The translations under genes and the position numbers were made by a program. Under the pieces are notes generated by a model. The model did no database searches. It was not told the DNA's origin and worked only from the letters and a program-made list of their open reading frames with translations. Below are positions 12,357 to 30,287 of a DNA stretch of 64,000 nt, piece by piece (the first letter of the stretch is position 1; every line of letters starts with the position of its first letter). Source of the DNA: Acidisoma cellulosilyticum (GTDB taxonomy: Bacteria; Pseudomonadota; Alphaproteobacteria; Acetobacterales; Acetobacteraceae); the NCBI RefSeq assembly GCF_020621385.1, contig NZ_JAESVA010000014.1:62001-126000 (forward strand). The letters run 5' to 3'.

Positions 12357-12695
12357 ATGATAAAGCACATCGTCATGTGGAACCTGCTTGGGGATAGTCC
12401 AGAGGAGAAGCTGTCGGCCGCGATGCAAGTCAAAACGGGTTTCGAGGGGCTTATCGGTCAGATTCCAGGCTTGATGCATCTTGAAGTCGGCATCGATATC
12501 AGCCGCGTGTCCTATGCCTGCGACATGGTTCTTTATTCTGAGTTTACCGACGGCGACGCCCTGGCCTCCTACGCCAACCATCCCGCCCATCTCGACGTGC
12601 GCGACCGCATCGCGGGCCTGCGGATCGCGCGCTATCAGGTTGACTATCCGGCGCCTTCCGATTCCCCGTATCAATCAGCATCAGATTTTCGCTGA
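12357..12695 (+). CDS. Dabb (stress-responsive alpha/beta barrel) domain protein
   Basis: A 112-residue protein starting MIKHIVMWNL, the signature opening of the Dabb family (dimeric ferredoxin-like barrel). HPAHLDVRD near residue 78 contains the conserved His pair. Dabb proteins have varied roles; some are cyclases or isomerases acting on polyketide or phenolic substrates, others have none known. A GGAAG ribosome site precedes the ATG at 12357; a GTG at 12345 is a weaker start. It stands alone between lysR and the IclR-site-controlled operon. A role in the aromatic or cyclitol pathway downstream is possible but unproven. Confidence 0.85.
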   Translation: MIKHIVMWNLLGDSPEEKLSAAMQVKTGFEGLIGQIPGLMHLEVGIDISRVSYACDMVLYSEFTDGDALASYANHPAHLDVRDRIAGLRIARYQVDYPAPSDSPYQSASDFR

Positions 12696-12884: not shown

Positions 12885-12903
12885 TTGTGCGGTTTACGCA
12901 CAA
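12885..12903. promoter_or_regulatory. IclR-type operator, site 1 (TTGTGCG-N5-CGCACAA)
   Basis: The perfect 7-5-7 inverted repeat TTGTGCGGTTTACGCACAA ends 15 bases before the TTG start of the first binding-protein gene. The same arms and spacing recur at 19826 and 30269, each ahead of another unit of the pathway. Confidence 0.8.
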
Positions 12904-12918
12904 TATCGGGAGGATAAA

Positions 12919-13944
12919 TTGACCTCTATCAACCTATCTCGGTCAGTCTTGCGTGCTGCCGCTCTGGGCCTCGGTCTCGTTGTCGCCGGGGGCCAGGCGC
13001 AGGCAGCCGAACCCGTTCTCGGCTATGCGGCGGGCTTCCTCACCGACCCGTTTCAGGCGGTCCTGGTGCAACAGGCATTGGCGACGGCGCGGGCTGAGGG
13101 ATTTCACACATTGCCGGCGACAAACGCCAATGGAGATGCCGGCAAGCAAATCTCGGACATCCACAATCTTATCGCGACCGGCGCCAAGGTTCTGATCATT
13201 AACCCCACGGATAGTGAGGCGATTATTCCGGCTCTTGCCTTCGCGGCCAAGAAGAAGGTTCCGGTGGTTGCGATCGATACGGCGCCGGCCGGCGGGTCGC
13301 TGGCCATGGTCGTGCGCGCCGACAATGCGGCCATGGGTGCGCAGGCTTGCCAGCAAATCGGCAAGGCGCTTGGCGGCCAAGGCATCGTGCTCTCGCTGAT
13401 GGGTGACCAGGCCACGACCAACGGGCGCGACCGCACGACCGGCTTCAATACATGCCTCAAGGCCAGCTATCGGAATATCAAGTTGATTCAGGAGCCGACC
13501 AACTGGAAGGCGGACCAGGCGACGGCCATTGCGCAGACAATCGTCACCTCGACACCGAAGCTTTCGGCGATTTATATGCAGAGCGACTCCGTCATGCTGG
13601 CCGGCGTCGTCAATGTGTTGAAGACGGCCCATAAGCTCAAACCCGTAGGGCAGCCGGGCCATATCGTGCTTGTCAGCATCGATGGAACGCCTTTGGCTTT
13701 GCAGGATATCCGCAAGGATCTGCTGGATTCGGTCGTCTCCCAGCCGCTCAATCTCTACATCAAATACGGCGTCTACTATGCCAAGGCCGCTCTGGCAGGA
13801 AAGACCTTCGCACCCGGCCCGACCGACCATGACAGCACAATCATCGCCAAGGGCAAGATCGAGATGGATCTGCTGACGGCGCCGATCGTGACGAAGGCGA
13901 ATGTCGATGACCCATCCCTGTGGGGCAATCAGACGAAAAGCTGA
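12919..13944 (+). CDS. Sugar-type ABC importer substrate-binding protein (system 1)
   Basis: A 341-residue RbsB-like periplasmic protein with a signal peptide (core about 10-23, cleavage after AQA at about 29). It uses a TTG start, supported by GGGAGG with five-base spacing. The body shows the type-1 periplasmic-binding pattern: ISDIHNLIATGAKVLIINPTD, then VPVVAIDTAP. Ribose-family proteins bind pentoses, hexoses, inositols and other polyols. It heads the operon 12919-18932, and the IclR operator lies immediately upstream. A single ATPase and a single permease gene follow, as for homodimeric permease systems. Confidence 0.92.
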   Translation: MTSINLSRSVLRAAALGLGLVVAGGQAQAAEPVLGYAAGFLTDPFQAVLVQQALATARAEGFHTLPATNANGDAGKQISDIHNLIATGAKVLIINPTDSEAIIPALAFAAKKKVPVVAIDTAPAGGSLAMVVRADNAAMGAQACQQIGKALGGQGIVLSLMGDQATTNGRDRTTGFNTCLKASYRNIKLIQEPTNWKADQATAIAQTIVTSTPKLSAIYMQSDSVMLAGVVNVLKTAHKLKPVGQPGHIVLVSIDGTPLALQDIRKDLLDSVVSQPLNLYIKYGVYYAKAALAGKTFAPGPTDHDSTIIAKGKIEMDLLTAPIVTKANVDDPSLWGNQTKS

Positions 13945-13969
13945 TGATCCTGGTTGAAGGGATAGGCTC

Positions 13970-15487
13970 ATGGTGAGCAGCGTTTTATCCTCCGCTCCGC
14001 GGGCGACCGATGGTGCGGCTGCTGCCTTCGCTTTGAAAACGGAGAAGGTCAGCCGCAGCTTTGGACCGACGCGCGTATTGCATGACGTGAGCTTTTCTGT
14101 TCCCGTCGGCGACTCGCGTGCTTTGGTCGGCCGCAACGGCGCTGGCAAATCAACCCTTGTGGCCATTGTCACCGGCATGCTGTCGCCGAGTGCGGGGGTG
14201 GTGGAACTGGCGGGATTGCCGGCCCCGGCCCTGGGTGACAGGGCGGCCTGGCGAGAGCGCGTAGCCTGCGTCTATCAGCGTTGGACGGTCATCCCCACGC
14301 TGACGGTGGCTGAAAATCTCTACCTCAACAGCCAGCCGCGCAATCGTCTCGGTTTGATCGGATGGAACCGGCTTCGCGAGCAGGCGCGTGCGACGCTCGC
14401 GGAATGGGGCCTTGACGTCGAGCCGGACCTCATGGCGTCGCGCCTGACGGTGGAGCAAAGACAGATCGTCGAAATCGGTCGTGCTCTGCTGCAGGGAAGC
14501 CGGTTGCTGATCTTGGATGAGCCGACGGCGGAATTGGAACGGCGCGAGGTGCATCGGCTCTTCGACCGTATCCGCCATCTGCAGCAGAGTGGCGTCACCT
14601 TCATCTATATTTCCCATCATCTCGAAGAAATCTATGAAATCTGCCGCAGCGTGACCGTCTTACGGGATGGTCTTCTGGTGGCCGATGCCCCGCTCGGTGA
14701 CATGCCGAAGGGCGCGCTGGTGCAGGCCATGGTGGGTGCGGCGGCGGGGGCGGCGCGTGCCGCACCGGTCGGCCGCGAGACGGTCGGGCCGGCTGCGCTC
14801 ACGGTCAAGGATTTGGCGATCGGCACCCTCGTCCAGGATGTCAGTTTCAATCTCCAGCCCGGCGAATGCATGGGGCTGGCAGGACTGGCGGGGTCCGGCA
14901 AGGAGGAGATCGGTGAGGCGATCATTGGCCTTCGCCGCTACAAGGGTCTTATCCAGACGGCACAGCCGGGCGACCGCATCGGCTATGTGCCGCGTGACAG
15001 GCATGAGCGCGGCATCCTGCCGCAGCTCTCCATTGCCGAGAATCTTACTGTCACCGTCACGGATAGTTTCGGGCGCTTCGGCTTCATCTCGCCGCGTCGG
15101 CAAAACGACCGCGCCAGCGCACTCGTGCGCAGCCTTGGAATCGTCAGCGCATCGCTGAAGCAGCCGATTTCGGAACTCAGCGGCGGCAATCAGCAAAAAG
15201 GGCTGATGGGCCGCGCGCTGGCTTCCGCGCCGAAGGTATTGGTTTTGGTCTCGCCGACACAAGGTGTCGACATCGCGTCCAAGGAGGCGTTGTTCGGGAT
15301 CGTCGCCAAGGCCCAGGCGGAGGGCGCGGCGGTGCTGATCATTTCCGATGATCTTGACGAGCTTGCCGTCTGTGATCGCGTGCAAGTCATATTCCGGGGC
15401 CGTCTGACAAGGCAATTCGGTCGAGATCGCAACGACGAGGATATCGTCGCTGCGATCGAAGGATTGGAGGAAGAACAGCATGGTTGA
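13970..15487 (+). CDS. Sugar-type ABC importer ATP-binding protein (system 1)
   Basis: A 505-residue RbsA/MglA-like protein with two NBDs. NBD1 has Walker A GRNGAGKST (54-62) and Walker B LLILDEPTAEL. NBD2 keeps the signature LSGGNQQK (403), but the Walker B acidic pair is replaced by Val-Ser (about 427-428, in LVSPTQGVD), so this site should not hydrolyse ATP. It lies 25 bases after the binding-protein gene and overlaps the permease gene by 8 bases. Confidence 0.93.
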   Translation: MVSSVLSSAPRATDGAAAAFALKTEKVSRSFGPTRVLHDVSFSVPVGDSRALVGRNGAGKSTLVAIVTGMLSPSAGVVELAGLPAPALGDRAAWRERVACVYQRWTVIPTLTVAENLYLNSQPRNRLGLIGWNRLREQARATLAEWGLDVEPDLMASRLTVEQRQIVEIGRALLQGSRLLILDEPTAELERREVHRLFDRIRHLQQSGVTFIYISHHLEEIYEICRSVTVLRDGLLVADAPLGDMPKGALVQAMVGAAAGAARAAPVGRETVGPAALTVKDLAIGTLVQDVSFNLQPGECMGLAGLAGSGKEEIGEAIIGLRRYKGLIQTAQPGDRIGYVPRDRHERGILPQLSIAENLTVTVTDSFGRFGFISPRRQNDRASALVRSLGIVSASLKQPISELSGGNQQKGLMGRALASAPKVLVLVSPTQGVDIASKEALFGIVAKAQAEGAAVLIISDDLDELAVCDRVQVIFRGRLTRQFGRDRNDEDIVAAIEGLEEEQHG

Positions 15488-16499
15488 TGTTGCTATCGCC
15501 GCGCCGCGCGGCCGAGGGAAAAGCAGGGCCTGGGTTTCCCGGTTGCAATTGCGTGAGCTTGTCCTATTGCCTGTGATCATTCTGGCAATGATCGCGGGCG
15601 CTATCGTCAATCCGTCATTTCTGACGGCAGACAATCTCATCAATATTCTGCAGCAGTGTTCGGAACTCTCGATTCTGGTCATCGCCGAGTCCTTGATTTT
15701 GATGTGCGGCATGTTCGATCTGTCGCTTGAATCCATTGTCGGCTTCTGCCCCATGCTCGCTGCCTGGCTGATCGTGGCCGATACCACGGAGGGCGGCTCC
15801 GGCTTCGGGCTGAACGGCTTCGTCGCGATCGCCCTCGTTCTTGTGGCCGGTGCGGTCATCGGCGCCTTCAACGGCTTTCTGGTTGTGCGCCTCAAACTCA
15901 ATGCCTTTATTGCGACACTCGCGATGCTGATCCTGCTGCGGGGCACCACAATCGGCATGACTAATGGGCGGACGTTGTTCGATCTGCCGCCGGAATTCCT
16001 CTATCTCGGCTCGGCGACCTGGTTCGGCATCCCGGTCTCCATCTGGATCGCCGGATTCCTGTACCTGATTTTCGGCCTGCTGCTGCGCTATCACCGGCTG
16101 GGTCGGGCGCTTTATGCGATCGGCGGCAATCCGGAAGCGGCAAGGATCGCGGGTATCCCTGTCGAGCGCATCACCTGGGGTGTTTTCGCTTTGGCCGGGC
16201 TATTGGCGGCGCTGGCCGGGCTTATGCTGACCGGCCGCATCGCCTCGGTGGTGGCAAGCCAAGGCCAGAACCTGATCTTCTATGTCTTCGCGGCAGCTGT
16301 TATTGGCGGCATCAGCCTGAACGGCGGACAAGGGCGACTGCTTGGCGCGCTGACGGGTGTCATTCTTCTCGGCATTCTGCAGAACGTCCTGACCTTGTCG
16401 CAGATCGCCGCTTTCTGGATCGACGCCGCCTATGGCGCCATCATCCTGCTGTCCCTGATCGTCACCCGCTTTACCGGTGAGGCGCCGCGCCGGGCCTGA
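15480..16499 (+). CDS. Sugar-type ABC importer permease (system 1)
   Basis: A 339-residue RbsC-like permease with about eight to ten hydrophobic segments. The family stretch RLGRALYAIGGNPEAARIAGI lies at about 200-220 and GGISLNGGQG near the C-terminal end. It probably acts as a homodimer, since only one permease gene is present. Its start lies inside the ATPase gene's last codons. The SDR gene follows 44 bases later in the same operon. Confidence 0.93.
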   Translation: MVDVAIAAPRGRGKSRAWVSRLQLRELVLLPVIILAMIAGAIVNPSFLTADNLINILQQCSELSILVIAESLILMCGMFDLSLESIVGFCPMLAAWLIVADTTEGGSGFGLNGFVAIALVLVAGAVIGAFNGFLVVRLKLNAFIATLAMLILLRGTTIGMTNGRTLFDLPPEFLYLGSATWFGIPVSIWIAGFLYLIFGLLLRYHRLGRALYAIGGNPEAARIAGIPVERITWGVFALAGLLAALAGLMLTGRIASVVASQGQNLIFYVFAAAVIGGISLNGGQGRLLGALTGVILLGILQNVLTLSQIAAFWIDAAYGAIILLSLIVTRFTGEAPRRA

Positions 16500-16543
16500 A
16501 GCCTGGGACGTGACGCCGCTTAACTCTCTCGTGCGAGGTTGAA

Positions 16544-17317
16544 ATGTCACTTGCTGATCTGATCCGGCTGGATGGTCGCGTTGCCTTGGTGACCGGTGCG
16601 GCGCGGGGCATGGGCGCTGCCATTGCCGAGGAGCTTCTCGCCTTGGGTGCGACCGTCGTCCTGTCCGATCAGTCGCCCGCCGTCCGCGACACAGCGGAAG
16701 CCCTGGGGCGTGGCGGCGGCAAGACGGACGCGATCGTGACGGACGTCACCGACAGCGCTTCCGTCGACAAGACGATTGCGGAGGTCGTCGCCCGCCATGG
16801 CAGCATCGACATTCTGGTCGCCAATGCCGGCATCGCCTATGAGGAGCCGACCACGACGCATTCCGATGAAAACTGGCGGCGTGTCATGGCCGTCAATGTC
16901 GACGGTGTGTTCTTCGCGGTTCGTGCGGCTGGCCGCCACATGGTCGCCGCGAAACGCGGTGCCATCGTCGCCATATCATCGATCGCGGGTGTCACCAGCG
17001 TGCGGCCGGAATTGCATATCGGCTATGACGTGTCGAAAGCGGCCGTCGCGCATCTTTGCCGGAATGTCGCGGTTGAATGGGCATCCTCCGGCGTTCGCGT
17101 CAATGCCGTCGGTCCGGCCTATGCGGATACGGAGATGCTGGCGGAGGTCGGTCGCACCCGGCCGGAAGTTATGCGCGCCTGGCTCGCGGATATGCCCATC
17201 GGACGGTTGATTGCACCGCGGGAAGTGGCCCAGACGGTCGCCTTCCTGGTCTCCGACGCGGCGTCCGGAATTACCGGGCAGAATCTGATGGTCGATGGCG
17301 GCTACTCCGCCGCCTAA
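16544..17317 (+). CDS. SDR family NAD(P)-dependent oxidoreductase
   Basis: This 257-residue classical short-chain dehydrogenase has the cofactor motif TGAARGMG (about 18-25), NAGIAYEE after strand 4, the YDVSK catalytic pair (about 164-168) and the C-terminal GQNLMVDGGYS. It would oxidise or reduce a hydroxyl/keto group on the imported compound. It is the fourth gene of the operon starting at 12919 and the first of four SDR genes in the IclR-site-linked region. The substrate is not readable from the sequence. Confidence 0.92.
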   Translation: MSLADLIRLDGRVALVTGAARGMGAAIAEELLALGATVVLSDQSPAVRDTAEALGRGGGKTDAIVTDVTDSASVDKTIAEVVARHGSIDILVANAGIAYEEPTTTHSDENWRRVMAVNVDGVFFAVRAAGRHMVAAKRGAIVAISSIAGVTSVRPELHIGYDVSKAAVAHLCRNVAVEWASSGVRVNAVGPAYADTEMLAEVGRTRPEVMRAWLADMPIGRLIAPREVAQTVAFLVSDAASGITGQNLMVDGGYSAA

Positions 17318-17341
17318 CACCCTTTGCAATCGAGAGAAGCT

Positions 17342-18193
17342 ATGATCAGCGACCAGCGTATTCTTGCCGCCTATTGGACCCTGGCCGGGGACTGCTTTCC
17401 GGGCGGAAAGACCGAGGTCAGCCCTTATGCGTTTGAAACGCGGGTGGCAGCGGCGGCCGCCGCCGGCTATGGCGGCATCGGCCTTGTGCATGCGGATATC
17501 CAGCACTTGCGTGACGCCCTCGGCTTCAGCCGGATGCGGGCCATATTGGATGCCCACGGCATGCGTGATCTTGAGGTGGAGATTTTCAGCGACTGGTTTG
17601 CCAATGGCGAGCGCCGCGCGAGATCGGATGTGATGCGCGCGGATCTTCTCATTGCCGCGCAAGAACTAGGGGCCAGCCATATCAAGATCAGCGGCGATAT
17701 GGACGGTGCCGACTGGCCGCTGCCGGTGATGGCGGATGCTTTTGGCACGCTCTGCGCGGAAGCCGCGCGGGCGGGCACGCGTGTCGGGATCGAGATCATG
17801 CCCTGGTCCAATCTCAGCACGATCGCGAATACCATGCCTGTGGTCAATGCGGCCAATGCGAAGAATGGCGGTGTATTGCTCGATGTTTGGCATATGGTAC
17901 GGGGTCATGTGCCGTTCGAGGATATCGGCCGCCTGCCGGCCGACAAAATCATCTCGATCGAGTTGGATGACGGGCCTGCTCAACCGGCGGCGGACCTCTG
18001 GCATGAGACGCTGCATGACCGCCTTCTGTGCGGCGAGGGCGCTTTCGATATTCCTGGCTTCCTGTCTCAGGTTGCGCGGACGGGCTATGACGGCCCTGTC
18101 GGCGTGGAGATATTGTCGAAAGATCACAGAATCCTGCCGCTGGACCAGATGGCGCAGCGTGCGTTTGATTCGGTCAAGAAAGTCCTGGCTTAA
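17342..18193 (+). CDS. Sugar phosphate isomerase/epimerase-type TIM-barrel protein
   Basis: A 283-residue AP-endonuclease-2/xylose-isomerase-like TIM barrel. Candidate metal ligands are Glu in VGIEIMPW (about 150), Asp in LLDVWHMV (about 183) and Glu in VGVEILS (about 261). The family includes isomerases, epimerases, inosose dehydratase (IolE) and 3-dehydroshikimate dehydratase, all acting on polyhydroxy ketones. Placed between an SDR and small cupin/YciI genes in a pathway ending in ring cleavage, a dehydratase that helps aromatise a ring is an attractive but unproven reading. The ATG at 17342 has GAGAGAAG upstream; a TTG six codons earlier is less likely. Confidence 0.87.
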   Translation: MISDQRILAAYWTLAGDCFPGGKTEVSPYAFETRVAAAAAAGYGGIGLVHADIQHLRDALGFSRMRAILDAHGMRDLEVEIFSDWFANGERRARSDVMRADLLIAAQELGASHIKISGDMDGADWPLPVMADAFGTLCAEAARAGTRVGIEIMPWSNLSTIANTMPVVNAANAKNGGVLLDVWHMVRGHVPFEDIGRLPADKIISIELDDGPAQPAADLWHETLHDRLLCGEGAFDIPGFLSQVARTGYDGPVGVEILSKDHRILPLDQMAQRAFDSVKKVLA

Positions 18194-18229
18194 AATCGGA
18201 CAGATTGACAATTCCTGGAGAAAGACAGC

Positions 18230-18517
18230 ATGCGCTTTGTGGTCCATTGCCTCGACAAATCGGGCGCACTCCCGCTGAGATTGCAGAATTATGAAGCGCA
18301 TAAAGCCTATCTTGCCTCGGGGGTCGTGCGGACAGTGGTATCCGGCCCATTGGTCGCGGATGACAGGGAAACCATGATCGGATCGATGTTCATCTTCGAA
18401 GCGGACAGCAAGGACGATGTCATCGCTTTCAACACGGCAGATCCCTTTAACAAGGCCGGCATATGGGGATCGGTCAGTATCAACGCCTTCCTGATGCGCG
18501 TCGACAATCGCGGATAG
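18230..18517 (+). CDS. YciI family protein
   Basis: A 95-residue ferredoxin-like small protein with the YciI features: early His-x-x-Asp (VVHCLDKSG), the central HKAYLASG stretch and the C-terminal DPFNKAGIW. YciI relatives resemble muconolactone isomerase and some act in aromatic or chlorophenol catabolism; most are uncharacterised. A GGAGA ribosome site precedes the ATG. It lies between the TIM-barrel and cupin genes and is probably co-transcribed with them. Confidence 0.87.
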   Translation: MRFVVHCLDKSGALPLRLQNYEAHKAYLASGVVRTVVSGPLVADDRETMIGSMFIFEADSKDDVIAFNTADPFNKAGIWGSVSINAFLMRVDNRG

Positions 18518-18533
18518 ATGAGGAGCACCGGCT

Positions 18534-18932
18534 ATGGACGTCATGAATGCGAATATCGAACCGACAGTAGAGCACGGTGGATCCTGTCACACCTATTTCA
18601 TGGTGCCGAAGGAGGCGATGAGGGCGGCGACAGAGAATTCCTACCTCGAATATATCTCTGAGTTCGAAATAGCGGCGGAGTCTCACCTTGAGCCGCATCG
18701 CCATAACACGCACGAATTTTACTACATTCTCAAAGGGCGTGGGATTATGCAGATCGAACGCGACAAGCGCGAGGTTGCGCCCGGCGATCTGATCCATATA
18801 CCGCCGAATGCCGTGCACAGCATCGCACCGATCAGCGGAACGGGGCCAATCAGGGCCTTGGCTTTCGCGGCGAGTTTCTTGCCGCCGGGCGGCGCCGGAA
18901 CCGAGGCTGATGCGGCTGAACTTCCGGCCTGA
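18534..18932 (+). CDS. Cupin domain protein
   Basis: A 132-residue single-domain cupin. Motif 1 is HRHNTHEFYYILKGRG (His55/His57, Glu61) and motif 2 is PPNAVHSI (His about 96), giving a likely mononuclear metal site. Small cupins serve as isomerases, dioxygenases or ligand sensors; its role here is unknown. It is the last gene of the 12919-18932 operon, with GAGGAG upstream, and ends 7 bases from the convergent IclR gene. Confidence 0.87.
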   Translation: MDVMNANIEPTVEHGGSCHTYFMVPKEAMRAATENSYLEYISEFEIAAESHLEPHRHNTHEFYYILKGRGIMQIERDKREVAPGDLIHIPPNAVHSIAPISGTGPIRALAFAASFLPPGGAGTEADAAELPA

Positions 18933-18939
18933 TAGCGTT

Positions 18940-19740
18940 TCAGTCCGGGGCATAGACCTGGCGCAGATCGGCCTGCAGATGCAGAAGATGCGGCAGAAAT
19001 GAGTCCCGCATCTTCTTCACGCTGACACGGGCGGCCTGAGCGCCGATGTTCAAAGCGGCGACGACATTGCCGCGATTATCGTATAAGGGCAAAGCGATGG
19101 AGCGCAGGCCAAGTTCCAACTCCTCGTCGATGATTGCATAACCTTGACGTTTGATCTTGGCGAGTTCGGCCATCAGCGGCAGGATTTCGGTTATCGTCTT
19201 TGCGGTCAGTGCAGGTCGGCTCGCTTTTTCGAGCAGCTTTCGCGCTTGGTCCGGCGGCATGAAAGCGAGCAGCGCGCGGCCCATTGAGGAGCAATAGGCG
19301 GGCAGCCGGCTGCCAACATTCAGATTGATCGACATGACGCGCTGTCGCGATGCCCTTGCGATGTACACGATGGATTGACCGTCCAATACTGAAACCGAGC
19401 AGCTTTCCTCCGTCTCGCGCGACATTTGTTCCAGCAGAGGCTGGACGATGCTCGGCAGCGAGGCTGTATGCAGATAGGAATAACCGAGCCGAAGAATGCG
19501 CGGCGTTAACTTGAAGAATTTACCGTCATGTTCCGCATAGCCGAGCGATACCAGCGTTAGCAAAAGACGGCGGCATGTTGCGCGATCCATGTCGGTTTCG
19601 CGGGCGACATCCGAAATGGCCAGGCGCGGGTGATCCCGGTCGAAGGTCTCGATAACGCGAAGTCCTTTGATAAGACCGCCGACCATATTGGAGTTGCGAT
19701 CTTTTGAGACCTTGCTGTCTTCATCGTGCAGATCTGACAT
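18940..19740 (-). CDS. IclR family transcriptional regulator
   Basis: This 266-residue protein has an N-terminal winged helix-turn-helix (about 22-80, with ISDVARETDMDRATCRRLL) and a C-terminal effector domain (GSRLPAYCSSMGRALLA at about 140). IclR proteins often control aromatic (PcaR, PobR) and glyoxylate pathways and bind short palindromes. It is divergent from the ADH operon, and one copy of TTGTGCG-N5-CGCACAA lies 86 bases upstream of its start. That makes it the best candidate to bind all three copies and to control its own gene. Confidence 0.93.
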   Translation of the reverse strand: MSDLHDEDSKVSKDRNSNMVGGLIKGLRVIETFDRDHPRLAISDVARETDMDRATCRRLLLTLVSLGYAEHDGKFFKLTPRILRLGYSYLHTASLPSIVQPLLEQMSRETEESCSVSVLDGQSIVYIARASRQRVMSINLNVGSRLPAYCSSMGRALLAFMPPDQARKLLEKASRPALTAKTITEILPLMAELAKIKRQGYAIIDEELELGLRSIALPLYDNRGNVVAALNIGAQAARVSVKKMRDSFLPHLLHLQADLRQVYAPD

Positions 19741-19825
19741 TGAAGCCCTTGCGGATATGACGTGCGATTAGCAACACAGATTGACAAAAACGGAAAGATG
19801 CGGTGATCTATCTGACAAGGAAACA

Positions 19826-19844
19826 TTGTGCGTATATCGCACAA
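19826..19844. promoter_or_regulatory. IclR-type operator, site 2
   Basis: TTGTGCGTATATCGCACAA is a perfect 7-5-7 inverted repeat in the divergent region between the IclR gene (start 19740) and the alcohol dehydrogenase (start 19997), so it could control both. A TTGACA at 19781-19786 is a possible -35 element. Arms and spacing are identical to site 1. Confidence 0.82.
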
Positions 19845-19996
19845 AATATTCAAGATCGCAATTCGCATCCGTCAAACAGGTTGCGCCAGAACGTCGCCGG
19901 TCAACGGGTCAATGGGTCAACGCCGACCGCTGCGGTCTCGCAACTGGCTGCGCCGTCAAATCGCACTGACGAACGGGAGGCTAAGGAGGAATTCGC

Positions 19997-22602: not shown

Positions 22603-23627
22603 TGGCCGAAGCAATGGCAGTCAAGACAACGGAGGGTTGGGTCAGCGAGCGCCTGCGTCGCATGGTCGCGACGCCGCATGAACTTCATGCGACCTCCATT
22701 CGCGGCGGCACACTTGTGCTGATCATTGTGGCTGTCCTCTTCGTTCCGCATTTCGCGGAATTCGGCAATCTCCAATCCATCATGTATTCCCTGGCGGCTG
22801 TCGGCATCGGGGCCGTCGGCATGGCGCTGGTGACCCTCAGCGGCAATCTTTTCATGCTGTCGATGGGCGCGACCGCCGCTTTCTCGACAGTTGTCTTTGC
22901 ATCGCTGATCAGCCTCGGCCTTCTGCCGACGATGCTTCTGGTGGTCGCAGCGGGAACATTGATCGGGCTCATCCAGGGCGTGCTCATCGGTGCGGCGGAT
23001 ACCAATCCCATCATCACGACGATCGCCGCCGCTTCCATGATCACCGGCTTTGGCGTGCTTTGGACCGGCGGCATCACCGTCGTCGGCCATGGACAAGCGA
23101 CCTGGCTGGGCTTTGGGCGCGTGTTCGGCCTCATTCCCAACCAGATCCTGGTCATGCTGATCTTTGCCGGCATCGCCGGTTTTGTGATGCAGAAGACCCG
23201 CCTTGGGCGCGAGATCCGGCTGATCGGCATGCAGCGGGACGTGGCGCGGGTCGCGGGTCTCAGGCTCATAGCCGCGACCATGTTCTGCTATGGTTTTGCG
23301 GGTGCGGCAGCGGCCCTTGCCGGCAGTCTCATCGCCTCGTCCTCGGCCCAGGGCAATCTGACCTACGGCATCGATCTCGACTTCAACGCGATTGCCGCTG
23401 TTCTGGTCGGCGGTGTCTCTATTCGCGGTGGGCGCGGTCGTGTCGGTGATGCGGTGGTCGGCGCCATGTTTCTCAGCATCATCGGCAATGTCCTGTTGGT
23501 CAGTGGCGTCAGTTACGAATACCAGCTGGTCGTGAAAGGCGCGGTCGTATTGGCATCGGTGATCATTGGCGCATTGCTTGGGCAATGGGCGCCAAGGTTG
23601 CGTCGTCGCGTGGGAGCAGCGAGATGA
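22599..23627 (+). CDS. Sugar-type ABC importer permease A (system 2)
   Basis: A 342-residue RbsC-like membrane protein with about nine hydrophobic segments. The conserved AVLVGGVSIRGGRGRVGDAV stretch is at about 266-285. The start is the GTG at 22599 (overlapping the ATPase TGA) or the ATG at 22602. It is paired with a second permease whose start overlaps its stop (ATGA), so this importer probably has a heterodimeric pore. Confidence 0.92.
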   Translation: MMAEAMAVKTTEGWVSERLRRMVATPHELHATSIRGGTLVLIIVAVLFVPHFAEFGNLQSIMYSLAAVGIGAVGMALVTLSGNLFMLSMGATAAFSTVVFASLISLGLLPTMLLVVAAGTLIGLIQGVLIGAADTNPIITTIAAASMITGFGVLWTGGITVVGHGQATWLGFGRVFGLIPNQILVMLIFAGIAGFVMQKTRLGREIRLIGMQRDVARVAGLRLIAATMFCYGFAGAAAALAGSLIASSSAQGNLTYGIDLDFNAIAAVLVGGVSIRGGRGRVGDAVVGAMFLSIIGNVLLVSGVSYEYQLVVKGAVVLASVIIGALLGQWAPRLRRRVGAAR

Positions 23628-24610
23628 GCGGTGCTGCCTGGCTGACCCGATCGATCAGGCTGGTTCTGCTCGTCGCGCTGCCCTTGGGCTTTGCGCTGAC
23701 CGTGAAACACTTTCTGTCGCTCGACAATCTTTACGCCATCTTCCAGTCCTTCGCATTCCTCGGCCTTTTGGCTCTTGGCCTCTCCGTCACGATGATTGCA
23801 GGTGAGTTTGATTTGAGCGTCGCGGCGATGGCGACGGTCGCCGGCCTCGTCACGATCAAGCTAGTCGTGCTTGGTCCGGTCGCCGCGGTGCTTTGCGCGG
23901 TCATGGTCGGCACCGTCATCGGCATCGGCAATGCGGTCTTGCTGCCTTGGCTGCAAATCTCCTCCCTCGTCACGACCGTCGGCACGATGATCCTGCTCAA
24001 CGGCGTCGGCTTCTGGCTCGCTGGCGGGCGGGTGCTGAGTTACGACAATTTCGACGTCAGCGACGCCTTGGATCAGACGCTGCTGGGCATATTTTCACCC
24101 CGCAGCCTCATCACCATCCTGTGCTTCCTGCTGATCGCGGCCTTTCTCCAGTTCACCAAACTGGGGCGCGATATCTATGCCAGCGGCGGCCATCGCCGTG
24201 CGGCCATTCAGAGCGGCGCCCGGGTGGGTCTGGCCCTTGTCGTGTGCTTTGCGATCTCAGGCGCTTTCGCGGCCCTGGCGGGGTCCTTGATCTCGCTCAG
24301 CCTGGCGACGGCCTCGGCGACGCTGGACAGCACGACGCTGCTTCAGGCGGCGGCTGCGGCCATCATCGGCGGGGTGGCGCTCGGCGGCGGCATCGGGTCG
24401 CCGGCCAGTGTGGCCACGGGTGTGCTGATCCTGACCATCCTGAACAATGGACTTGGTCTTCTCAGTGCCAGCTCGACGGAACTGCTTCTGGTGAACGGCG
24501 CGCTTCTGCTCATCGTCGTGCTGTTGGACGGCAAAGCGGGACAGGCGCTGATGGATCTGCGTCGCAAGACAGCGCAAACAAAACGGAGGAACGTGACATG
24601 GCAAGGTTGA
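23624..24610 (+). CDS. Sugar-type ABC importer permease B (system 2)
   Basis: A 328-residue RbsC-like permease with the opening TM followed by MIAGEFDLSVAAMATVAG and a late GGVALGGGIGSPASVATG. The ATG at 23624 overlaps the TGA of permease A and has GGGAG upstream; an in-frame ATG at 23585 would force a 43-base overlap and is less likely. Its 3' end overlaps the following SDR gene by 13 bases. Confidence 0.91.
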   Translation: MSGAAWLTRSIRLVLLVALPLGFALTVKHFLSLDNLYAIFQSFAFLGLLALGLSVTMIAGEFDLSVAAMATVAGLVTIKLVVLGPVAAVLCAVMVGTVIGIGNAVLLPWLQISSLVTTVGTMILLNGVGFWLAGGRVLSYDNFDVSDALDQTLLGIFSPRSLITILCFLLIAAFLQFTKLGRDIYASGGHRRAAIQSGARVGLALVVCFAISGAFAALAGSLISLSLATASATLDSTTLLQAAAAAIIGGVALGGGIGSPASVATGVLILTILNNGLGLLSASSTELLLVNGALLLIVVLLDGKAGQALMDLRRKTAQTKRRNVTWQG

Positions 24611-25317
24611 CAGGTAAGGTGGTGATCGTCACCGGTGCCGCGCAAGGCATCGGCGCCGCTGTCGCCGAACTCTTTGCCCAGGAAGGTGCGACGGTCATCG
24701 CCGGTGACGTCAGGGACGTCGCGGCACAGACCGGTATCACGCCGGTCGCGCTGGATGTGTCGTCGCCGGCCGATTGGCAGCGGGTGACGGAGGAGATCAT
24801 CGCACGGCACGGCCGGATCGACGTACTGGTCAATAATGCGGGCATCGTGGAAGCCTACGGGCCTATTCATGAGACTGACCTCGCAAGCTGGAACCGGGTC
24901 ATTGCCGTCAACCAGACCGGAAGTTTCCTGGGCATTCAGTCCGTGCTGCCAACGATGCGACAGGCGCGGCGCGGGTCGATTGTCAATTTCTCGTCGATCT
25001 GGGGGAATGTCGGCGTGCCCGGGGCGGCCGCGTATAATGCCGCCAAGGGCGCCGTCCGCAATATGACCAAGAATGCGGCCGTGACCTACGCGCCTGAGAA
25101 TATCCGCGTCAATTCCGTCCATCCTGGCCTTATTCGCACGCCGTTGGTGGAGGCACAGTCGGACGCGATGAACCAGGGCATCATCGGTCAGACGCCGATG
25201 GGGCGGATGGGAACACCGCTGGAGGTAGCCTATGGCTGCCTTTTTCTCGCCAGTGACGAGTCGAGTTTTGTGACCGGCAGTGAGCTGATCATAGACGGTG
25301 GATATCTCGCGCAATAG
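24598..25317 (+). CDS. SDR family NAD(P)-dependent oxidoreductase
   Basis: This 239-residue classical short-chain dehydrogenase has TGAAQGIG (about 13-20), NNAGIVEAY, the catalytic YNAAK (about 144-148) and a C-terminal GSELIIDGGY. The ATG at 24598 has CGGAGGA upstream; a longer open frame to 23893 only shadows the permease. It lies between the importer and the maleylacetate reductase gene and probably oxidises a hydroxyl on a ring or polyol intermediate. Confidence 0.92.
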   Translation: MARLTGKVVIVTGAAQGIGAAVAELFAQEGATVIAGDVRDVAAQTGITPVALDVSSPADWQRVTEEIIARHGRIDVLVNNAGIVEAYGPIHETDLASWNRVIAVNQTGSFLGIQSVLPTMRQARRGSIVNFSSIWGNVGVPGAAAYNAAKGAVRNMTKNAAVTYAPENIRVNSVHPGLIRTPLVEAQSDAMNQGIIGQTPMGRMGTPLEVAYGCLFLASDESSFVTGSELIIDGGYLAQ

Positions 25318-25354
25318 CAAGCCCTCTAACGGCGGCGCCATGGAGCCCTCCCCG

Positions 25355-26416
25355 ATGACCGGATTTGTCTACACATCCCATCCTGCGCGCGTGATCTTTG
25401 GGTCAGGGACCTTGGCGCGGCTGCCCGAGGAGGTTGAGCGGCTGGATCTGCACCGTGTCCTGGTTCTGGCGGCACCGCAGCAGGCCGATGACGCCCAGCA
25501 GATCGCGGCCAGGATCGGGCCTAGGGCGGCGGCAGTTTTTTCGGGTGCGACCATGCATACGCCGGTCTCGGTCACGGAGGAGGCGATGCGCCTTGTCCAG
25601 ACCGAGAGGATCGACGGGCTTGTCGCCGTCGGCGGCGGCTCTACCACCGGTCTCGGCAAGGCCATCGCTTTGCGAACGGACCTGCCGCAGATCGTGGCGC
25701 CCACAACCTATGCCGGCTCGGAAATGACGCCGATCCTGGGGGAGACCCGCGACGGGCAGAAAGTCACGCAGAAAAGCCCGCGCGTGTTGCCCGAGACCGT
25801 CATCTACGATGTTGACCTGACACTCAATCTGCCCGTCGCCTTGTCGGGGACCAGCGGCATCAATGCCATCGCCCATGCCGTGGAAGCGCTCTATGCGCAG
25901 GATCGCAATCCCATCATGTCTTTGATGGCGCTGGAGGGGATTCGCGCCATGGCGCGCGCGCTGCCGGTCATCGTGCAGTCGCCGGGGGATCGGGCGGCGC
26001 GATCGGATGCCCTCTACGGCGCCTGGCTATGCGGGTTGTGTTTAGGAACCGTCGGCATGGCGCTGCACCATAAGCTTTGTCATACTTTGGGCGGCACCTT
26101 CGATCTGCCGCATGCCGAGACGCATACGGCGGTTTTGCCTCATGCCGTCGCCTATAACGCGCCGGCGTTGCCGGATGAGATGGCGGCATTGGCGGCAGCC
26201 CTCGGGGCCACCGACGCAGCGCAGGGGCTTTTTGATCTGGCAGATGCCGTCGGTGCTCAGCATGCGTTGAAACATCTTGGCATGCCGGAGGCGGGTATCG
26301 AGCGCACCGCCGATATGGCCGTCGCCAATCCCTATTGGAACCCTCGTCCGTTGGAACGCCAGGCCATTCGGGATTTGATCGCACATGCCTATGCGGGAGA
26401 GCGCCCGCAGATCTGA
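25355..26416 (+). CDS. Maleylacetate reductase (iron-containing ADH superfamily)
   Basis: A 353-residue protein of the maleylacetate reductase group: the opening PARVIFGSGTLARLPEEVE, GGGSTTGLGKAIAL (about 78-91) and PTTYAGSEMTPILGET are characteristic. The enzyme reduces maleylacetate to 3-oxoadipate with NAD(P)H. It lies directly before an intradiol dioxygenase that would make maleylacetate from hydroxyquinol, and the same region encodes PcaI/J/F to use the product. The ATG at 25355 gives the family length and has GGAG upstream; the ATG at 25340 is an alternative. Confidence 0.92.
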   Translation: MTGFVYTSHPARVIFGSGTLARLPEEVERLDLHRVLVLAAPQQADDAQQIAARIGPRAAAVFSGATMHTPVSVTEEAMRLVQTERIDGLVAVGGGSTTGLGKAIALRTDLPQIVAPTTYAGSEMTPILGETRDGQKVTQKSPRVLPETVIYDVDLTLNLPVALSGTSGINAIAHAVEALYAQDRNPIMSLMALEGIRAMARALPVIVQSPGDRAARSDALYGAWLCGLCLGTVGMALHHKLCHTLGGTFDLPHAETHTAVLPHAVAYNAPALPDEMAALAAALGATDAAQGLFDLADAVGAQHALKHLGMPEAGIERTADMAVANPYWNPRPLERQAIRDLIAHAYAGERPQI

Positions 26417-26461
26417 CCGGTGACTTGTCTAGGATCTGCGCGAGAAGAGGAAAAAAGACAG

Positions 26462-27397
26462 ATGGCCAAGGATGATCAGGAAAAAGCGGGAACACCGCGC
26501 TATCCCTATTTCACGGAGGAGAATTCTGAACAGGTCGTCAATGCCCGCATGACGGCGGATACCGATCCGCGGCTGCGTGAGATCATGACGATTCTGGTGA
26601 AACACATGCATGCGGCGGTGAAGGAAATCAAACCGTCGCATGATGAATGGCTGAAAGGCATAGAGTTTCTGACCAGGATCGGTCACATGTGTACCGATTG
26701 GCGCCAGGAATTCATTTTGCTGTCTGACACGCTTGGCGTGTCGATGCTGGTGGATGCGATCAACCATCACCGGCCGGCTGGCACGACACCGAACACCATC
26801 CTTGGTCCGTTTCATGTCGACCATGCGCCGCATTATGACAATGGGGCCAATATCTGCCTGGACGGCAAGGGGGAGCCCATGGTCGTGCGCGGTCGTGTTC
26901 TGGATGAGCAGGGGGCGCCAGTCGCGGGCGCAACCCTGGATGTCTGGCAGACGAATGATGACGGATTCTACGATGTGCAGCAGAAGGGGCTGCAGCCGGA
27001 TTGGAATTTGCGCGGCGTCTTTACCTCGGATGCCGAGGGTCAGTATTGGCTGCGCACGGTGAAACCGCGCTTCTATCCGATCCCGGACGACGGTCCAGTG
27101 GGGCAGATGCTGGCAGCACTCGGCCGTCATCCGAACCGTGCCGCCCATATCCATTTCATCGTGACAGCACCGAAATTCGATCCGGTGATTACGCATATAT
27201 TTTCGCCCGACTGCCAATACCTCGCCGAGGACGCGGTCTTCGGCGTTAAGAATGAGCTGATCGGTGAGCTTCAGCGCATCACGGACCCTGAGGTCGCGGC
27301 GCGGCTGGGGGTCGCCGCACCGGCTTGGCTCGTCGAATGGGATTTCGTTCTGGCTCCACAAACCACAGGATCGGTGGAAAAAGCCGAACGCGTCTGA
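26462..27397 (+). CDS. Intradiol ring-cleavage dioxygenase, hydroxyquinol 1,2-dioxygenase type
   Basis: A 311-residue non-haem Fe(III) intradiol dioxygenase with an N-terminal helical dimerisation domain (about 20-110) and a beta-sandwich catalytic core. All four iron ligands are visible: Tyr170 (NDDGFYDVQ), Tyr205 (RFYPIPDDG), His229 and His231 (AAHIHF). With maleylacetate reductase next door, the likely reaction is 1,2,4-trihydroxybenzene to maleylacetate; catechol 1,2-dioxygenase activity is the alternative. The ATG at 26462 follows GAGGAAAAA. Flanks are maleylacetate reductase and an ABC binding protein. Confidence 0.92.
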   Translation: MAKDDQEKAGTPRYPYFTEENSEQVVNARMTADTDPRLREIMTILVKHMHAAVKEIKPSHDEWLKGIEFLTRIGHMCTDWRQEFILLSDTLGVSMLVDAINHHRPAGTTPNTILGPFHVDHAPHYDNGANICLDGKGEPMVVRGRVLDEQGAPVAGATLDVWQTNDDGFYDVQQKGLQPDWNLRGVFTSDAEGQYWLRTVKPRFYPIPDDGPVGQMLAALGRHPNRAAHIHFIVTAPKFDPVITHIFSPDCQYLAEDAVFGVKNELIGELQRITDPEVAARLGVAAPAWLVEWDFVLAPQTTGSVEKAERV

Positions 27398-27445
27398 CTG
27401 CGTCATCGTAATCCGCCGCATGAAGCGGCCAAAGGGAATAAGAAA

Positions 27446-28447
27446 ATGAGCCAAGGGCATAAACGGCAAAACTATCTGCGCAATCTGATGCTGGGTACGG
27501 TCGCGGCAGGCCTGCTCGGCATCTTCGGTGGCGCGGCACCGGCATGGGCCGCGGCCAAAGGGTCCAAGGTCATCCTTCTGACCGTGAGCCAATCCTGCGA
27601 ATATTGCGCACTGCATGAACGCGCCTTCCTCAAGGCAGCGGCGGCCGACGGCATCAACGTCGAAGTCAAGATCAACAATTTCGATGCCGGCCAGCAGGCA
27701 AGCCAGGTTGATCAGGCGGTCGCTGAGCATCCGGATGCTATCGTGGTTTGGCCTGCGGATGCCAGCGCCATTGTCCCATCGCTCAGGCGGATAAAAAAGG
27801 CCGGTATTCCCTTGGTGGTGACCAATTCCATGCCTAACCCGAAATATCAAAGCCTTTGGAACATCTACACCGGCCCGGACGATCTGGGGAATGGTCAACA
27901 GGCCGGTGAGGCGATGATCCAGGGATTGAAGGCCAAGGGCTATACCGGGAATACGGATATTTTCGTCATTCTCGGCGTTCTGGGCACGCCCCCGCAAATC
28001 AATCGTCTCGACGGTTTCACCGGTGTTCTGAAGGCAAAGGCGCCGATGGTGAAAATCGACGGCAGCCAGCCAGGCAATTGGGATCAGACGCAGGCGACGG
28101 ACGCGGCGGCAGCTTTGTTTACGCAATATGGCGCCCATATCAAAGGGGTCTATGCGGAGGCCGATAACATGCTGGCCGGGGTTATAGTGGCCGCCCAGCG
28201 CGCCGGTCTTGATCCGAAAACGCTCGTTCTGGTCGGCAGCAATTGCAGCGTGGAAGGTGTCAATGCAATCACCGCCGGCACGCAATACGCGACCGTCCTG
28301 CAGTCGCCCATTGATGACGGCAATTACGCGGCGCAAGCCGTCGCCGATCTGCTGGACGGCAAATCGGTTCCGAAGACGCGCTTTCTGCCGCATCCCACGA
28401 TCACGGCAGAGAATGTCGCCATGTGCAATGCCGCGATCGGCCGCTGA
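27446..28447 (+). CDS. Sugar-type ABC importer substrate-binding protein (system 2)
   Basis: A 333-residue RbsB-like periplasmic protein with a Sec signal (core about 15-30, cleavage near AWA at about 36). A CEYCALHE stretch just after the mature N-terminus carries a Cys pair, unusual for this family. The ligand-binding core follows (VDQAVAEHPDAIVVWPADAS). It is presumably the receptor for the ATPase/permease set at 21064-24610, from which it is separated by three enzyme genes of the same operon. Confidence 0.91.
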   Translation: MSQGHKRQNYLRNLMLGTVAAGLLGIFGGAAPAWAAAKGSKVILLTVSQSCEYCALHERAFLKAAAADGINVEVKINNFDAGQQASQVDQAVAEHPDAIVVWPADASAIVPSLRRIKKAGIPLVVTNSMPNPKYQSLWNIYTGPDDLGNGQQAGEAMIQGLKAKGYTGNTDIFVILGVLGTPPQINRLDGFTGVLKAKAPMVKIDGSQPGNWDQTQATDAAAALFTQYGAHIKGVYAEADNMLAGVIVAAQRAGLDPKTLVLVGSNCSVEGVNAITAGTQYATVLQSPIDDGNYAAQAVADLLDGKSVPKTRFLPHPTITAENVAMCNAAIGR

Positions 28448-28456
28448 GGGAGACGG

Positions 28457-29254
28457 ATGATGACAAGCGCTTTCTCCTTCGCTTTGCCCGGTGCGGTCGC
28501 CGTCTCGGGCGCATCTTCGGGTCTTGGTCACGCTGTCTGCCGTCTTCTGGCGGAAGCGGGTGTTCTGACAATCGGCGTGGATCGCGCGCCGGCCTTGAGC
28601 GATCTCCTGGAAACGGATGGCTATCGTCATATTCAGGGTGACGTGACACGCGATGAGACATGGGAAGCTGTCGCGCAAGCCCTGTCGGCCAGCGGGCGGG
28701 GGTCATATGGTCTCGTCACCGCCGCGGCCATGCTGGATGTCGGAACAATCATTGAAACCGGGCGAGACGATCTGCTGCGGACATTTGACGTCAATGTCGT
28801 GGGCACCGCGCTCGCCTTTCGCGCCATCCTGCCGCTCATGATTGCGCATGGTGCCGGCAGCATCGTCGCGGTCGCGAGCGTCGACGCGAGTTTTGCCGAG
28901 CAGCAACTCGCGGTCTATGCAGCGTCCAAGGCCGCGGTGCGACAGCTTGCCCGCACGGTCGCGATGGATCACGCGCGTCAGGGAGTTCGCGTCAATGTGC
29001 TCAGTCCCGGTCCGATGATGGCAGGGCTGTTCAAGCGCCATCTGGAATCGGCGGCCGATAGCGCTGCCTTCCTGGCCACGCGGTCGGCGCGCCAACCGGG
29101 GGGCCGCATTCTGGAGGCGGAGGAGGTTGCGCGCGCAGCCTTGTTCCTGCTGTCGGACGGTGCCGCCGCGCTCAATGGCGCCGATCTCATCGCCGATGGC
29201 GGCTTGACGACAAGCTTCGATTTCCGCACGGGCGCCGAAGGCGCTTCAGTCTGA
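28457..29254 (+). CDS. SDR family NAD(P)-dependent oxidoreductase
   Basis: A 265-residue short-chain dehydrogenase: SGASSGLG (about 16-23), catalytic YAASK (about 154-158), and C-terminal NGADLIADGGLT. It follows the binding-protein gene by 9 bases with a GAGGGAGA ribosome site and is followed 20 bases later by another SDR, so the two may act in sequence on the same molecule. Specific substrate unknown. Confidence 0.91.
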   Translation: MMTSAFSFALPGAVAVSGASSGLGHAVCRLLAEAGVLTIGVDRAPALSDLLETDGYRHIQGDVTRDETWEAVAQALSASGRGSYGLVTAAAMLDVGTIIETGRDDLLRTFDVNVVGTALAFRAILPLMIAHGAGSIVAVASVDASFAEQQLAVYAASKAAVRQLARTVAMDHARQGVRVNVLSPGPMMAGLFKRHLESAADSAAFLATRSARQPGGRILEAEEVARAALFLLSDGAAALNGADLIADGGLTTSFDFRTGAEGASV

Positions 29255-29274
29255 GAAACAAAGGGTAAGCGCAA

Positions 29275-30078
29275 ATGGAATCGGGATTAAAGGGACAGAT
29301 CGTCCTCATCACCGGGGCGGCCAAGGGCATTGGCAAGGCAACGGCACTCGCCTTCGCGCGTGAAGGCGCGCAACTGGCTTTGCTGGATATCGATGAAGCT
29401 GGTCTGGCCGAGGTCAAGGCGGAAGCCGAAGCGATCGGCGTCTCCGTGGCAATCGCCAAGACGGACCTGTCGACGGAGCAGGGGATCAACCGCGGTATTG
29501 ATGCGGTGCTGTCCGCCACGGGCGGGCAGGTCGATATACTCGTCAATAATGTCGGTTCCGGCTCCGTTCGGCGCTTTGAAGAACTCACTGACAGCGACTG
29601 GGACGCGACGATGCAGCTCAATTTCATGAGCTATGTGCGCACCTGCCGAAAACTGCTGCCGGTGCTGCGGCAGAGAGCGAAGCCGGTCATCATCAACAAT
29701 GCCTCCGATCTTGCCCGCCAGCCGGAGCCGGTGCCGGTGGACTATTCGGCATCCAAGGCGGCGGTACTGGCGCTGACCAAGGGCCTCGCCCGCGCGGAAG
29801 GGCCGCTGATCCGCGTCAATGCCGTCGCACCGGGCCCGATCTGGACGCCGTTCTGGACCAAGCCCGGCGGGTTCGCCGATACCATGAGCACCTTCCATGG
29901 ACGGCCGCCGCAGGAAGCCGTGGAATATGAAATGTCCTTGCGCCAGCTTCCCCTCGGTCGCCTTGGCAAGCCTGAGGAAGTGGCCAATGTCATCGTCTTT
30001 CTGGCCTCCGATCTGGCCAGTTTCGTGACCTCGGCTGTCTGGGGTGTCGACGGCGGCAGTATTCGCAGCATCGTGTGA
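29275..30078 (+). CDS. SDR family NAD(P)-dependent oxidoreductase
   Basis: This 267-residue short-chain dehydrogenase has TGAAKGIG (about 13-20), NNVGSGSV, catalytic YSASK (about 157-161), and ends WGVDGGSIRSI. It is the last gene of the 19997-30078 unit and is followed by a strong hairpin at 30149. Together with the genes at 16544, 24598 and 28457 and the MDR enzyme at 19997, it makes five dehydrogenases in the region. That suggests successive oxidation of several hydroxyls. Confidence 0.91.
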   Translation: MESGLKGQIVLITGAAKGIGKATALAFAREGAQLALLDIDEAGLAEVKAEAEAIGVSVAIAKTDLSTEQGINRGIDAVLSATGGQVDILVNNVGSGSVRRFEELTDSDWDATMQLNFMSYVRTCRKLLPVLRQRAKPVIINNASDLARQPEPVPVDYSASKAAVLALTKGLARAEGPLIRVNAVAPGPIWTPFWTKPGGFADTMSTFHGRPPQEAVEYEMSLRQLPLGRLGKPEEVANVIVFLASDLASFVTSAVWGVDGGSIRSIV

Positions 30079-30148
30079 TCCAGGCGCTGTCAATACTGCT
30101 AGGGATGTCAGGTCTTCCGGTCCCGCAACAACGCAGATTTGGCGATGT

Positions 30149-30176
30149 ATTGGCCGATACTTCGGTATCGGCCAAT
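30149..30176. terminator. 12-bp stem with TTCG loop after the SDR operon
   Basis: ATTGGCCGATAC (30149-30160) and GTATCGGCCAAT (30165-30176) pair perfectly around a TTCG tetraloop. No T-run follows on either strand, so it may end the operon with Rho's help, or protect the 3' end of the mRNA. It lies between the last SDR gene and the pcaIJF operator. Confidence 0.55.
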
Positions 30177-30268
30177 AACCGGCCCCGCAATGTGCCTGCG
30201 GGTCGTTGCAAAGAATCCTCATTGATTTTCGGTGCGGCCATGTCCACACTCACCATCAATATGAACAC

Positions 30269-30287
30269 CTGTGCGGTATACGCACAA
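30269..30287. promoter_or_regulatory. IclR-type operator, site 3
   Basis: CTGTGCGGTATACGCACAA has the same 7-5-7 layout as sites 1 and 2 with one mismatch in the outermost base. It lies 54 bases before the pcaI-like start and links the lower pathway to the same regulator. Confidence 0.78.

Follow-up and report, generated by a model that had tools for sequence, protein, structure and literature searches.

Resorcinol and γ-resorcylate are degraded by routes in which a hydroxylase makes hydroxyquinol from a phenol, and the γ-resorcylate route runs through that compound. PcaU, a regulator of the IclR family, has protocatechuate as its effector. The described systems closest to the one considered here are those of PcaR (Agrobacterium and Pseudomonas putida) and PcaU (Acinetobacter), which the present system resembles in belonging to the TIGR02431 subfamily, in the 7-5-7 bp architecture of the operator (PMC8222616, for the sections cited here), in having pcaIJF as a target, here a predicted one, and in the nearby location of the regulator gene. 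The same sections give the motif TTTGTTCGATWATCGMACAMA for PcaU and the consensus GTNCG-N5-6-CGNAC for the PcaU, PcaR and PobR group; they report a third, direct half-site for PcaU, PobR and HmgR, with PcaR not among the proteins they name, and state that this third repeat is needed for PcaU binding. TsdR of Rhodococcus jostii RHA1, likewise of the IclR family, regulates γ-resorcylate use and has a motif of another type, GTGTGRYTSSMRTCAYAC (PMC8222616, same sections). In Agrobacterium, PcaR activates pcaIJF with β-ketoadipate as the inducer (PMC12288460, cited in part), although this literature is not uniform, since the cited part of PMC12285266 calls PcaR a LysR-type protein and notes that its assignment rests on homology. 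To this group we propose to add a gene cluster of Acidisoma cellulosilyticum (assembly GCF_020621385.1), located in a stretch of 64,000 nucleotides (contig NZ_JAESVA010000014.1, positions 62,001-126,000, forward strand) referred to below as the window. Three copies of one inverted repeat in this cluster very probably mark a PcaR regulon of the known type with an enlarged set of targets, as judged from sequence comparison; this reading is based on the near-uniqueness of the sites, the subfamily of the encoded IclR protein, the matching operator architecture and the presence of near versions of the sites upstream of orthologues that are accompanied by pcaF.

A first-pass annotation had placed the repeat TTGTGCG-N5-CGCACAA at positions 12885 and 19826 and, with one mismatch, at 30269, and a pattern search of the window returned exactly these places (operators 1-3, Table 1). 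It had also described each copy as lying just upstream of a transcription unit and the second as lying upstream of the iclR gene at 18940-19740 as well, both of which hold. All three sites are intergenic: operator 1 is 15 bp before the TTG start codon of the first binding-protein gene, operator 2 is 85 bp from the iclR start and 152 bp from the start of the zinc alcohol dehydrogenase gene on its other side, and operator 3 is 54 bp before pcaI. The motif is not common across the genome. In the assembly scanned (6,004,381 bases in 59 contigs; completeness 98.52, contamination 3.53) the exact pattern occurs in two places, both within the cluster, against none for a reversed control pattern, and operators 1-3 make up three of the four places with up to one mismatch; the base composition of the window predicts 0.023 exact copies and 1.04 with up to one mismatch in 6.0 Mb. 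With up to two mismatches the pattern occurs 29 times and the reversed control 12 times. In the window alone, matching with up to three mismatches gave 8 matches against 4.38 expected, a number reached by 8 of 100 dinucleotide shuffles, and because this looser matching is not significant only strict sites were counted. Two other places were set aside: the fourth with up to one mismatch, on another contig (C3:517234) and inside a 348-amino-acid open frame that is MoaA-like by eye, and a two-mismatch place at 21809, inside an ABC ATPase gene.

The protein encoded at 18940-19740 carries both HTH_IclR and IclR_C domains and, on the strength of its profile score (Table 1), is a member of the PcaR/PcaU/PobR family. 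It is the sole match to itself at E ≤ 1e-40 in its own genome; a search of a collection of genome contigs gave four distant relatives with 29-30% identity (L041-L044). Operators 1-3 fit the published consensus of this group (PMC8222616, same sections), which has eight loose matches in the window, these three included. By eye they do not match the TsdR motif; the separation of the two proteins is by published motif only.

Relatives of the regulator on plasmids carry closely similar sites. Ten orthologue loci were fetched from the best 30 of 2206 records and one more (L055) was added through its dioxygenase match, giving 11 loci (L050-L053, L055, L061-L066) with orthologues 50-60% identical by tblastn. 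Just upstream of iclR, TTGTKCG-N5-CGCACAA is present with 0-2 mismatches in 10 of the 11 (0-2 of 500 shuffles as good) and with three mismatches in the eleventh (19 of 500); the strict motif of the window is found with up to two mismatches in eight. A pcaF match lies nearby in all 11, split into two pieces in L062. A third half-site, TTGTGCG, starts 18 bp upstream of the palindrome in every one of these loci, exact in ten and with one mismatch in the other. As a separate observation, contig C2 of another genome (G011, locus L079) has an exact operator copy at 9733-9751 that ends 6 bp before the ATG (9758) of an IclR gene whose product is 47% identical; within 20 kb there is just one weak match (36%) to the proteins of the window cluster, a short-chain dehydrogenase (SDR).

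We consider it likely that operators 1-3 are the operators of this PcaR-type protein, its binding to them and β-ketoadipate as its effector included and the conversion of the substrate excluded. The protein would bind the three sites and control its own gene, the operon for importer 1, an SDR and the TIM-barrel protein, the operon for zinc alcohol dehydrogenase, importer 2, reductase and dioxygenase, and pcaIJF. By analogy with Agrobacterium PcaR, the effector would be β-ketoadipate, which maleylacetate reductase forms; uptake, ring formation and final thiolysis would then be induced jointly by a product of the pathway itself. A polyhydroxylated precursor taken up by the importers would become hydroxyquinol through the action of the dehydrogenases and TIM-barrel protein, and the dioxygenase would open this compound to maleylacetate. 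The regulator may act as activator, repressor or both, site by site, with operator 1 lying so close to a start codon. The cell would thus probably switch on together the import of something sugar-like, the steps that make an aromatic ring from it and those that degrade this ring. What the predicted regulon adds to the PcaR and PcaU systems is the hydroxyquinol genes together with those for two CUT2 importers, dehydrogenases and the TIM-barrel protein. Control of a CUT2 importer by an IclR-type protein has precedent, as PMC8222616 (same sections) reports AraH-MglA-RbsB (CUT2) and aromatic genes among IclR-family regulons generally.

The 24 proteins encoded at 9778-32894 were scanned for families, and operon limits were inferred from gene spacing. 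Operon 1 (12919-18932) comprises the binding protein, ATPase and permease of importer 1, an SDR, the TIM-barrel protein, a YCII protein and a cupin, with iclR facing the opposite way. Operon 2 (19997-30078) comprises the zinc alcohol dehydrogenase, the ATPase and two permeases of importer 2, an SDR, maleylacetate reductase, the dioxygenase, a binding protein and two further SDRs; operon 3 (30342-32894) is pcaIJF. Upstream of operon 1 are LysR and Dabb genes and, further out, an amidohydrolase gene. Elsewhere in the window, at 5941-9704, an AtzD/TrzD-family ring-opening amidohydrolase gene (8613-9704) has genes for an ABC ATPase and a PnrA-like binding protein next to it, and the group may represent a separate cyclic amide or nucleobase route.

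Table 1. Predicted operators and genes of the cluster, in window coordinates.
Feature	Position	Strand	Remarks
Amidohydrolase	9778-11160		family scan
LysR-type regulator	11217..12131	-	56-65% identical LysR genes in 5/6 plasmid clusters with TIM-barrel and dioxygenase genes
Dabb (A/B barrel) small protein	12357..12695	+	
Operator 1	12885..12903	.	exact TTGTGCG-N5-CGCACAA
CUT2-type periplasmic binding protein 1 (RbsB-like)	12919..13944	+	
ABC ATPase 1	13970..15487	+	
ABC permease 1	15480..16499	+	
Short-chain dehydrogenase 1	16544..17317	+	
TIM-barrel (AP_endonuc_2) protein	17324..18193	+	related to QuiC 3-dehydroshikimate dehydratase domain and IolI
YCII-family small protein	18230..18517	+	
Cupin	18534..18932	+	
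IclR-type regulator, PcaR/PcaU/PobR subfamily	18940..19740	-	TIGR02431 (NCBIfam), 334.2 bits, cut-off 284.75
Operator 2	19826..19844	.	exact TTGTGCG-N5-CGCACAA; between divergent iclR and zinc alcohol dehydrogenase genes
Zinc alcohol dehydrogenase	19997..21067	+	butanediol/sorbitol/threonine dehydrogenase type
ABC ATPase 2	21064..22602	+	
ABC permease 2a	22599..23627	+	
ABC permease 2b	23585..24610	+	
Short-chain dehydrogenase 2	24598..25317	+	
Maleylacetate reductase (iron alcohol dehydrogenase type)	25298..26416	+	best solved match 3w5s, E 2.4e-130
Hydroxyquinol-type 1,2-dioxygenase	26420..27397	+	best solved match 8r2x (6-chlorohydroxyquinol dioxygenase), E 8.2e-92
CUT2-type periplasmic binding protein 2	27446..28447	+	
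Short-chain dehydrogenase 3	28457..29254	+	
Short-chain dehydrogenase 4 (SDR4)	29275..30078	+	
Operator 3	30269..30287	.	one mismatch (C replaces first T); before pcaI
pcaI-type CoA-transferase subunit A	30342..31022	+	TIGR02429, over cut-off
pcaJ-type CoA-transferase subunit B	31034..31696	+	TIGR02428, over cut-off
pcaF, 3-oxoadipyl-CoA thiolase	31689..32894	+	TIGR02430, over cut-off

The tie between sugar-type importers and an aromatic ring-cleavage route, proposed in the first-pass annotation, is supported and can be refined by the enzyme matches to the hydroxyquinol/maleylacetate branch. The five best solved structures matching the dioxygenase include three named (chloro)hydroxyquinol dioxygenase; the enzyme's best match to a catechol dioxygenase has an E-value of 5.7e-37 and the catechol model TIGR02439 scores below its cut-off. 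The dioxygenase gene adjoins, with 3 bp between, that of the iron-type alcohol dehydrogenase, for which two of the three best solved matches are named maleylacetate reductase. A route from hydroxyquinol through maleylacetate and β-ketoadipate to PcaIJF is therefore well supported by these matches. The 24 scanned proteins include neither a flavin hydroxylase nor a glycosidase, and the search for a hydroxylase was confined to them; the lack of a hydroxylase family in this set distinguishes the cluster from the TsdR regulon. Relatives of the dioxygenase in 299 sampled genomes of the order are at most 59% identical, whereas the best plasmid matches listed, mostly from Rhizobium and Agrobacterium and also from Sphingobium and Azospirillum, reach 66-70%, which suggests transfer of the gene between lineages. 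Among 29 dioxygenase loci of the order, viewed with about 1.5 kb on either side, one (L092) has a two-mismatch motif place.

Much of the enzyme set recurs on rhizobial plasmids. Comparisons of the TIM-barrel protein were drawn from plasmids because genome searches at E ≤ 1e-40 returned almost only its own genome: this genome alone out of 395 in the order, and it and one more out of 385 in the class. Five plasmid loci were fetched with the TIM-barrel protein (H1, H2, H3, H5, H16; best 30 of 453 records), four of them with a dioxygenase match, and five with the dioxygenase (H78, H84, H91, H96, H97; best 40 of 434 records), two of them with a TIM-barrel match. Six clusters have both genes (L046, L047, L048, L055, L057, L060), from R. 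leguminosarum pRL11, S. fredii, Shinella, Agrobacterium, R. gallicum and Rhizobium sp. T1473; left out were L049 (TIM barrel, no dioxygenase), L054 (3.8 kb only) and L056, L058 and L059 (dioxygenase, no TIM barrel). In the six, the TIM-barrel protein and dioxygenase, present by selection, are 42-47% and 52-70% identical to those of the window. YCII and SDR4 occur in all six, maleylacetate reductase, Dabb, zinc alcohol dehydrogenase and LysR in all but Shinella (5/6), the importer-1 set in three and pcaIJF in two. In the R. leguminosarum and T1473 clusters, fragments like the importer-2 ATPase and binding protein lie between Dabb and YCII (L047 13074-13778, L057 14134-14500), as if a second importer had decayed there. 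Three of the five dioxygenase-fetched loci lack the TIM barrel, and because one of them, the Agrobacterium locus L056, keeps Dabb, YCII, maleylacetate reductase and SDR4, this core may serve other aromatic sources too. The chemistry is thus a recurrent module; of the clusters compared, the one in this genome is the only one in which a tie to PcaR operators was seen.

The presence of dehydrogenases and of the TIM-barrel protein suggests a ring precursor as the cargo of the importers. Profile matches of the TIM-barrel protein were, in order, Lmo2234 (function not named), 5hmq (E 1.2e-19; listed as 4-hydroxyphenylpyruvate dioxygenase, HPPD) and IolI, with AsbF at 0.0016. We take the 5hmq chain to be a QuiC fusion, which fits the QuiC hit of this protein. 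The QuiC route from quinate and shikimate to protocatechuate follows the same logic, in that dehydrogenation and then dehydration by a TIM barrel produce the aromatic substrate of an intradiol dioxygenase. The window protein differs from QuiC in standing alone, with no HPPD-like half, in scoring 83 bits against a cut-off of 1200 for the QuiC equivalog model (a fusion of 635 positions), and in its association with a hydroxyquinol-type ring enzyme; its AlphaFold model, built from a single sequence, has a mean pLDDT of 54 and was set aside. On contig C4 of the same assembly, assumed to belong to the same organism, the region 528000-568000 (L075, L076) carries pcaIJF (74-75% identical), a hydroxyquinol-type dioxygenase and maleylacetate reductase beside CUT2-like importers, and a second dioxygenase. 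A further CUT2-like importer there has genes of the QuiC-route type (shikimate-dehydrogenase-like, QuiC-like fusion and pcaH) as neighbours. The region, including this second pcaIJF of the assembly, is free of operators with up to two mismatches.

Mainly because C4 parallels the combination of sugar-type importer, dehydrogenase, TIM barrel and intradiol dioxygenase, we put forward as plausible, though tentative, that the cluster turns an alicyclic polyol into the aromatic hydroxyquinol, with a quercitol-type deoxyinositol being oxidised, dehydrated and fed to the β-ketoadipate pathway. A deoxyinositol-type cyclitol (quercitol, C6H12O5) would be oxidised to a ketone (C6H10O5), which would lose two waters through a QuiC-like TIM-barrel dehydratase to give hydroxyquinol (C6H6O3). 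By our own arithmetic, C6H12O5 - 2 H - 2 H2O = C6H6O3, a balance that fits deoxyinositol and not inositol. The PcaR protein would then tie the whole cyclitol route, import included, to its end product. Such a route was not found in the portion of the open-access literature covered on cyclitols, inositol or quercitol with hydroxyquinol or aromatisation, which is no proof of absence.

Two other entry substrates are real alternatives and both are compatible with the regulon. A glycoside of hydroxyquinol or of a related phenol may be imported, the dehydrogenases oxidising its sugar and the TIM-barrel protein splitting this off by elimination to release the ring. CUT2 importers recognise sugar-like ligands, the TIM-barrel protein is presumably linked to the TIM barrels that split keto-glycosides, and in a Sphingobium locus of 36.9 kb with no dioxygenase match (L049) a 42% identical TIM-barrel gene lies between two annotated FAD-binding protein genes. 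We nevertheless regard this as rather unlikely, as the TIM-barrel protein finds its best functionally named relatives in IolI and the dehydroshikimate dehydratase family, and no glycosidase, Gfo/Idh/MocA protein or FAD oxidase is among the 24 cluster proteins. Alternatively, an ordinary aromatic enters and the hydroxylase or decarboxylase that forms hydroxyquinol is encoded elsewhere. The dioxygenase-fetched loci without a TIM barrel agree with this, and L056, which has a dioxygenase with the core described above, lies beside annotated amidohydrolase and benzaldehyde dehydrogenase genes; a P450 (L046) and an LLM-class flavin oxidoreductase (L055) are annotated some kb away, and the window has its own amidohydrolase gene at 9778-11160. 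This version is doubtful in that the scanned set holds no hydroxylase and that two sugar-type importers and a TIM-barrel protein are encoded inside the operator-bearing operons.

Several observations weigh against assigning the three sites to a PcaR regulon. No sigma-70-like promoter was found by a sigma-70 scan at any of them, and the three-box operator of all 11 plasmid loci was not found there, the third half-site having at least three mismatches at each; in this the window differs from PcaU as well. Among 29 loci of the same family (IclR proteins 38-50% identical), only five have a place with up to two mismatches (L012, L014, L016, L022, L037), and two of the five with pcaI in reach (L012, L021, L023, L031, L037) do so. 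Of these 29, eight were compared with shuffles; a site with up to two mismatches is present in L012, L014, L015 and L016 and absent from L013, L017, L018 and L031. The third half-site was not found at L014 and L016 either. The looser class motif occurs in 18 of the 29 (22 places in 105.5 kb, against eight in the 64-kb window, three of them the operators), a modest enrichment with no shuffle control behind it. Among the six plasmid clusters with TIM-barrel and dioxygenase genes, none has an operator copy with up to one mismatch and just one has an IclR/pcaIJF neighbour, its site showing three mismatches; a two-mismatch place in L046 lies inside an annotated gene.

These last figures bear on the possibility that the LysR protein (11217-12131) is the real regulator of the pathway, with IclR acting on itself and pcaIJF only and operators 1 and 2 mattering little for the catabolic operons. 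A 56-65% identical LysR gene is present in five of the six clusters, and operator 2, being also upstream of iclR, could be autoregulatory. We think this explanation improbable: autoregulation does not explain operator 1, which matches the motif exactly, lies 6.9 kb away from operator 2 and directly precedes the importer-1 operon. The first-pass annotation had placed all three units under one IclR regulator; the PcaR-like protein and the fitting operator architecture sustain the IclR assignment, but a single regulator is not established, because the LysR gene beside operon 1 may encode a second one and related LysR genes accompany similar clusters. That the repeats are terminators or chance palindromes is very improbable, for although a stem-loop scan gives a terminator-like call on the minus strand for operators 1 and 2, it gives none for operator 3, the sites would as terminators precede genes, since the minus-strand lysR (from 12131) and iclR (from 19740) begin beyond them, near copies stand upstream of PcaR orthologues elsewhere, and composition predicts so few exact copies.

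The PcaR regulon proposed here is testable through three named sites and one regulator, and it would extend a classic regulator of aromatic pathways to sugar-type importers. If the substrate reading is true, the cluster would add a route by which cyclic polyols are used through an aromatic intermediate, rhizobial plasmids included, and would provide functions for genes whose annotation now goes no further than sugar isomerase, YciI or Dabb protein.

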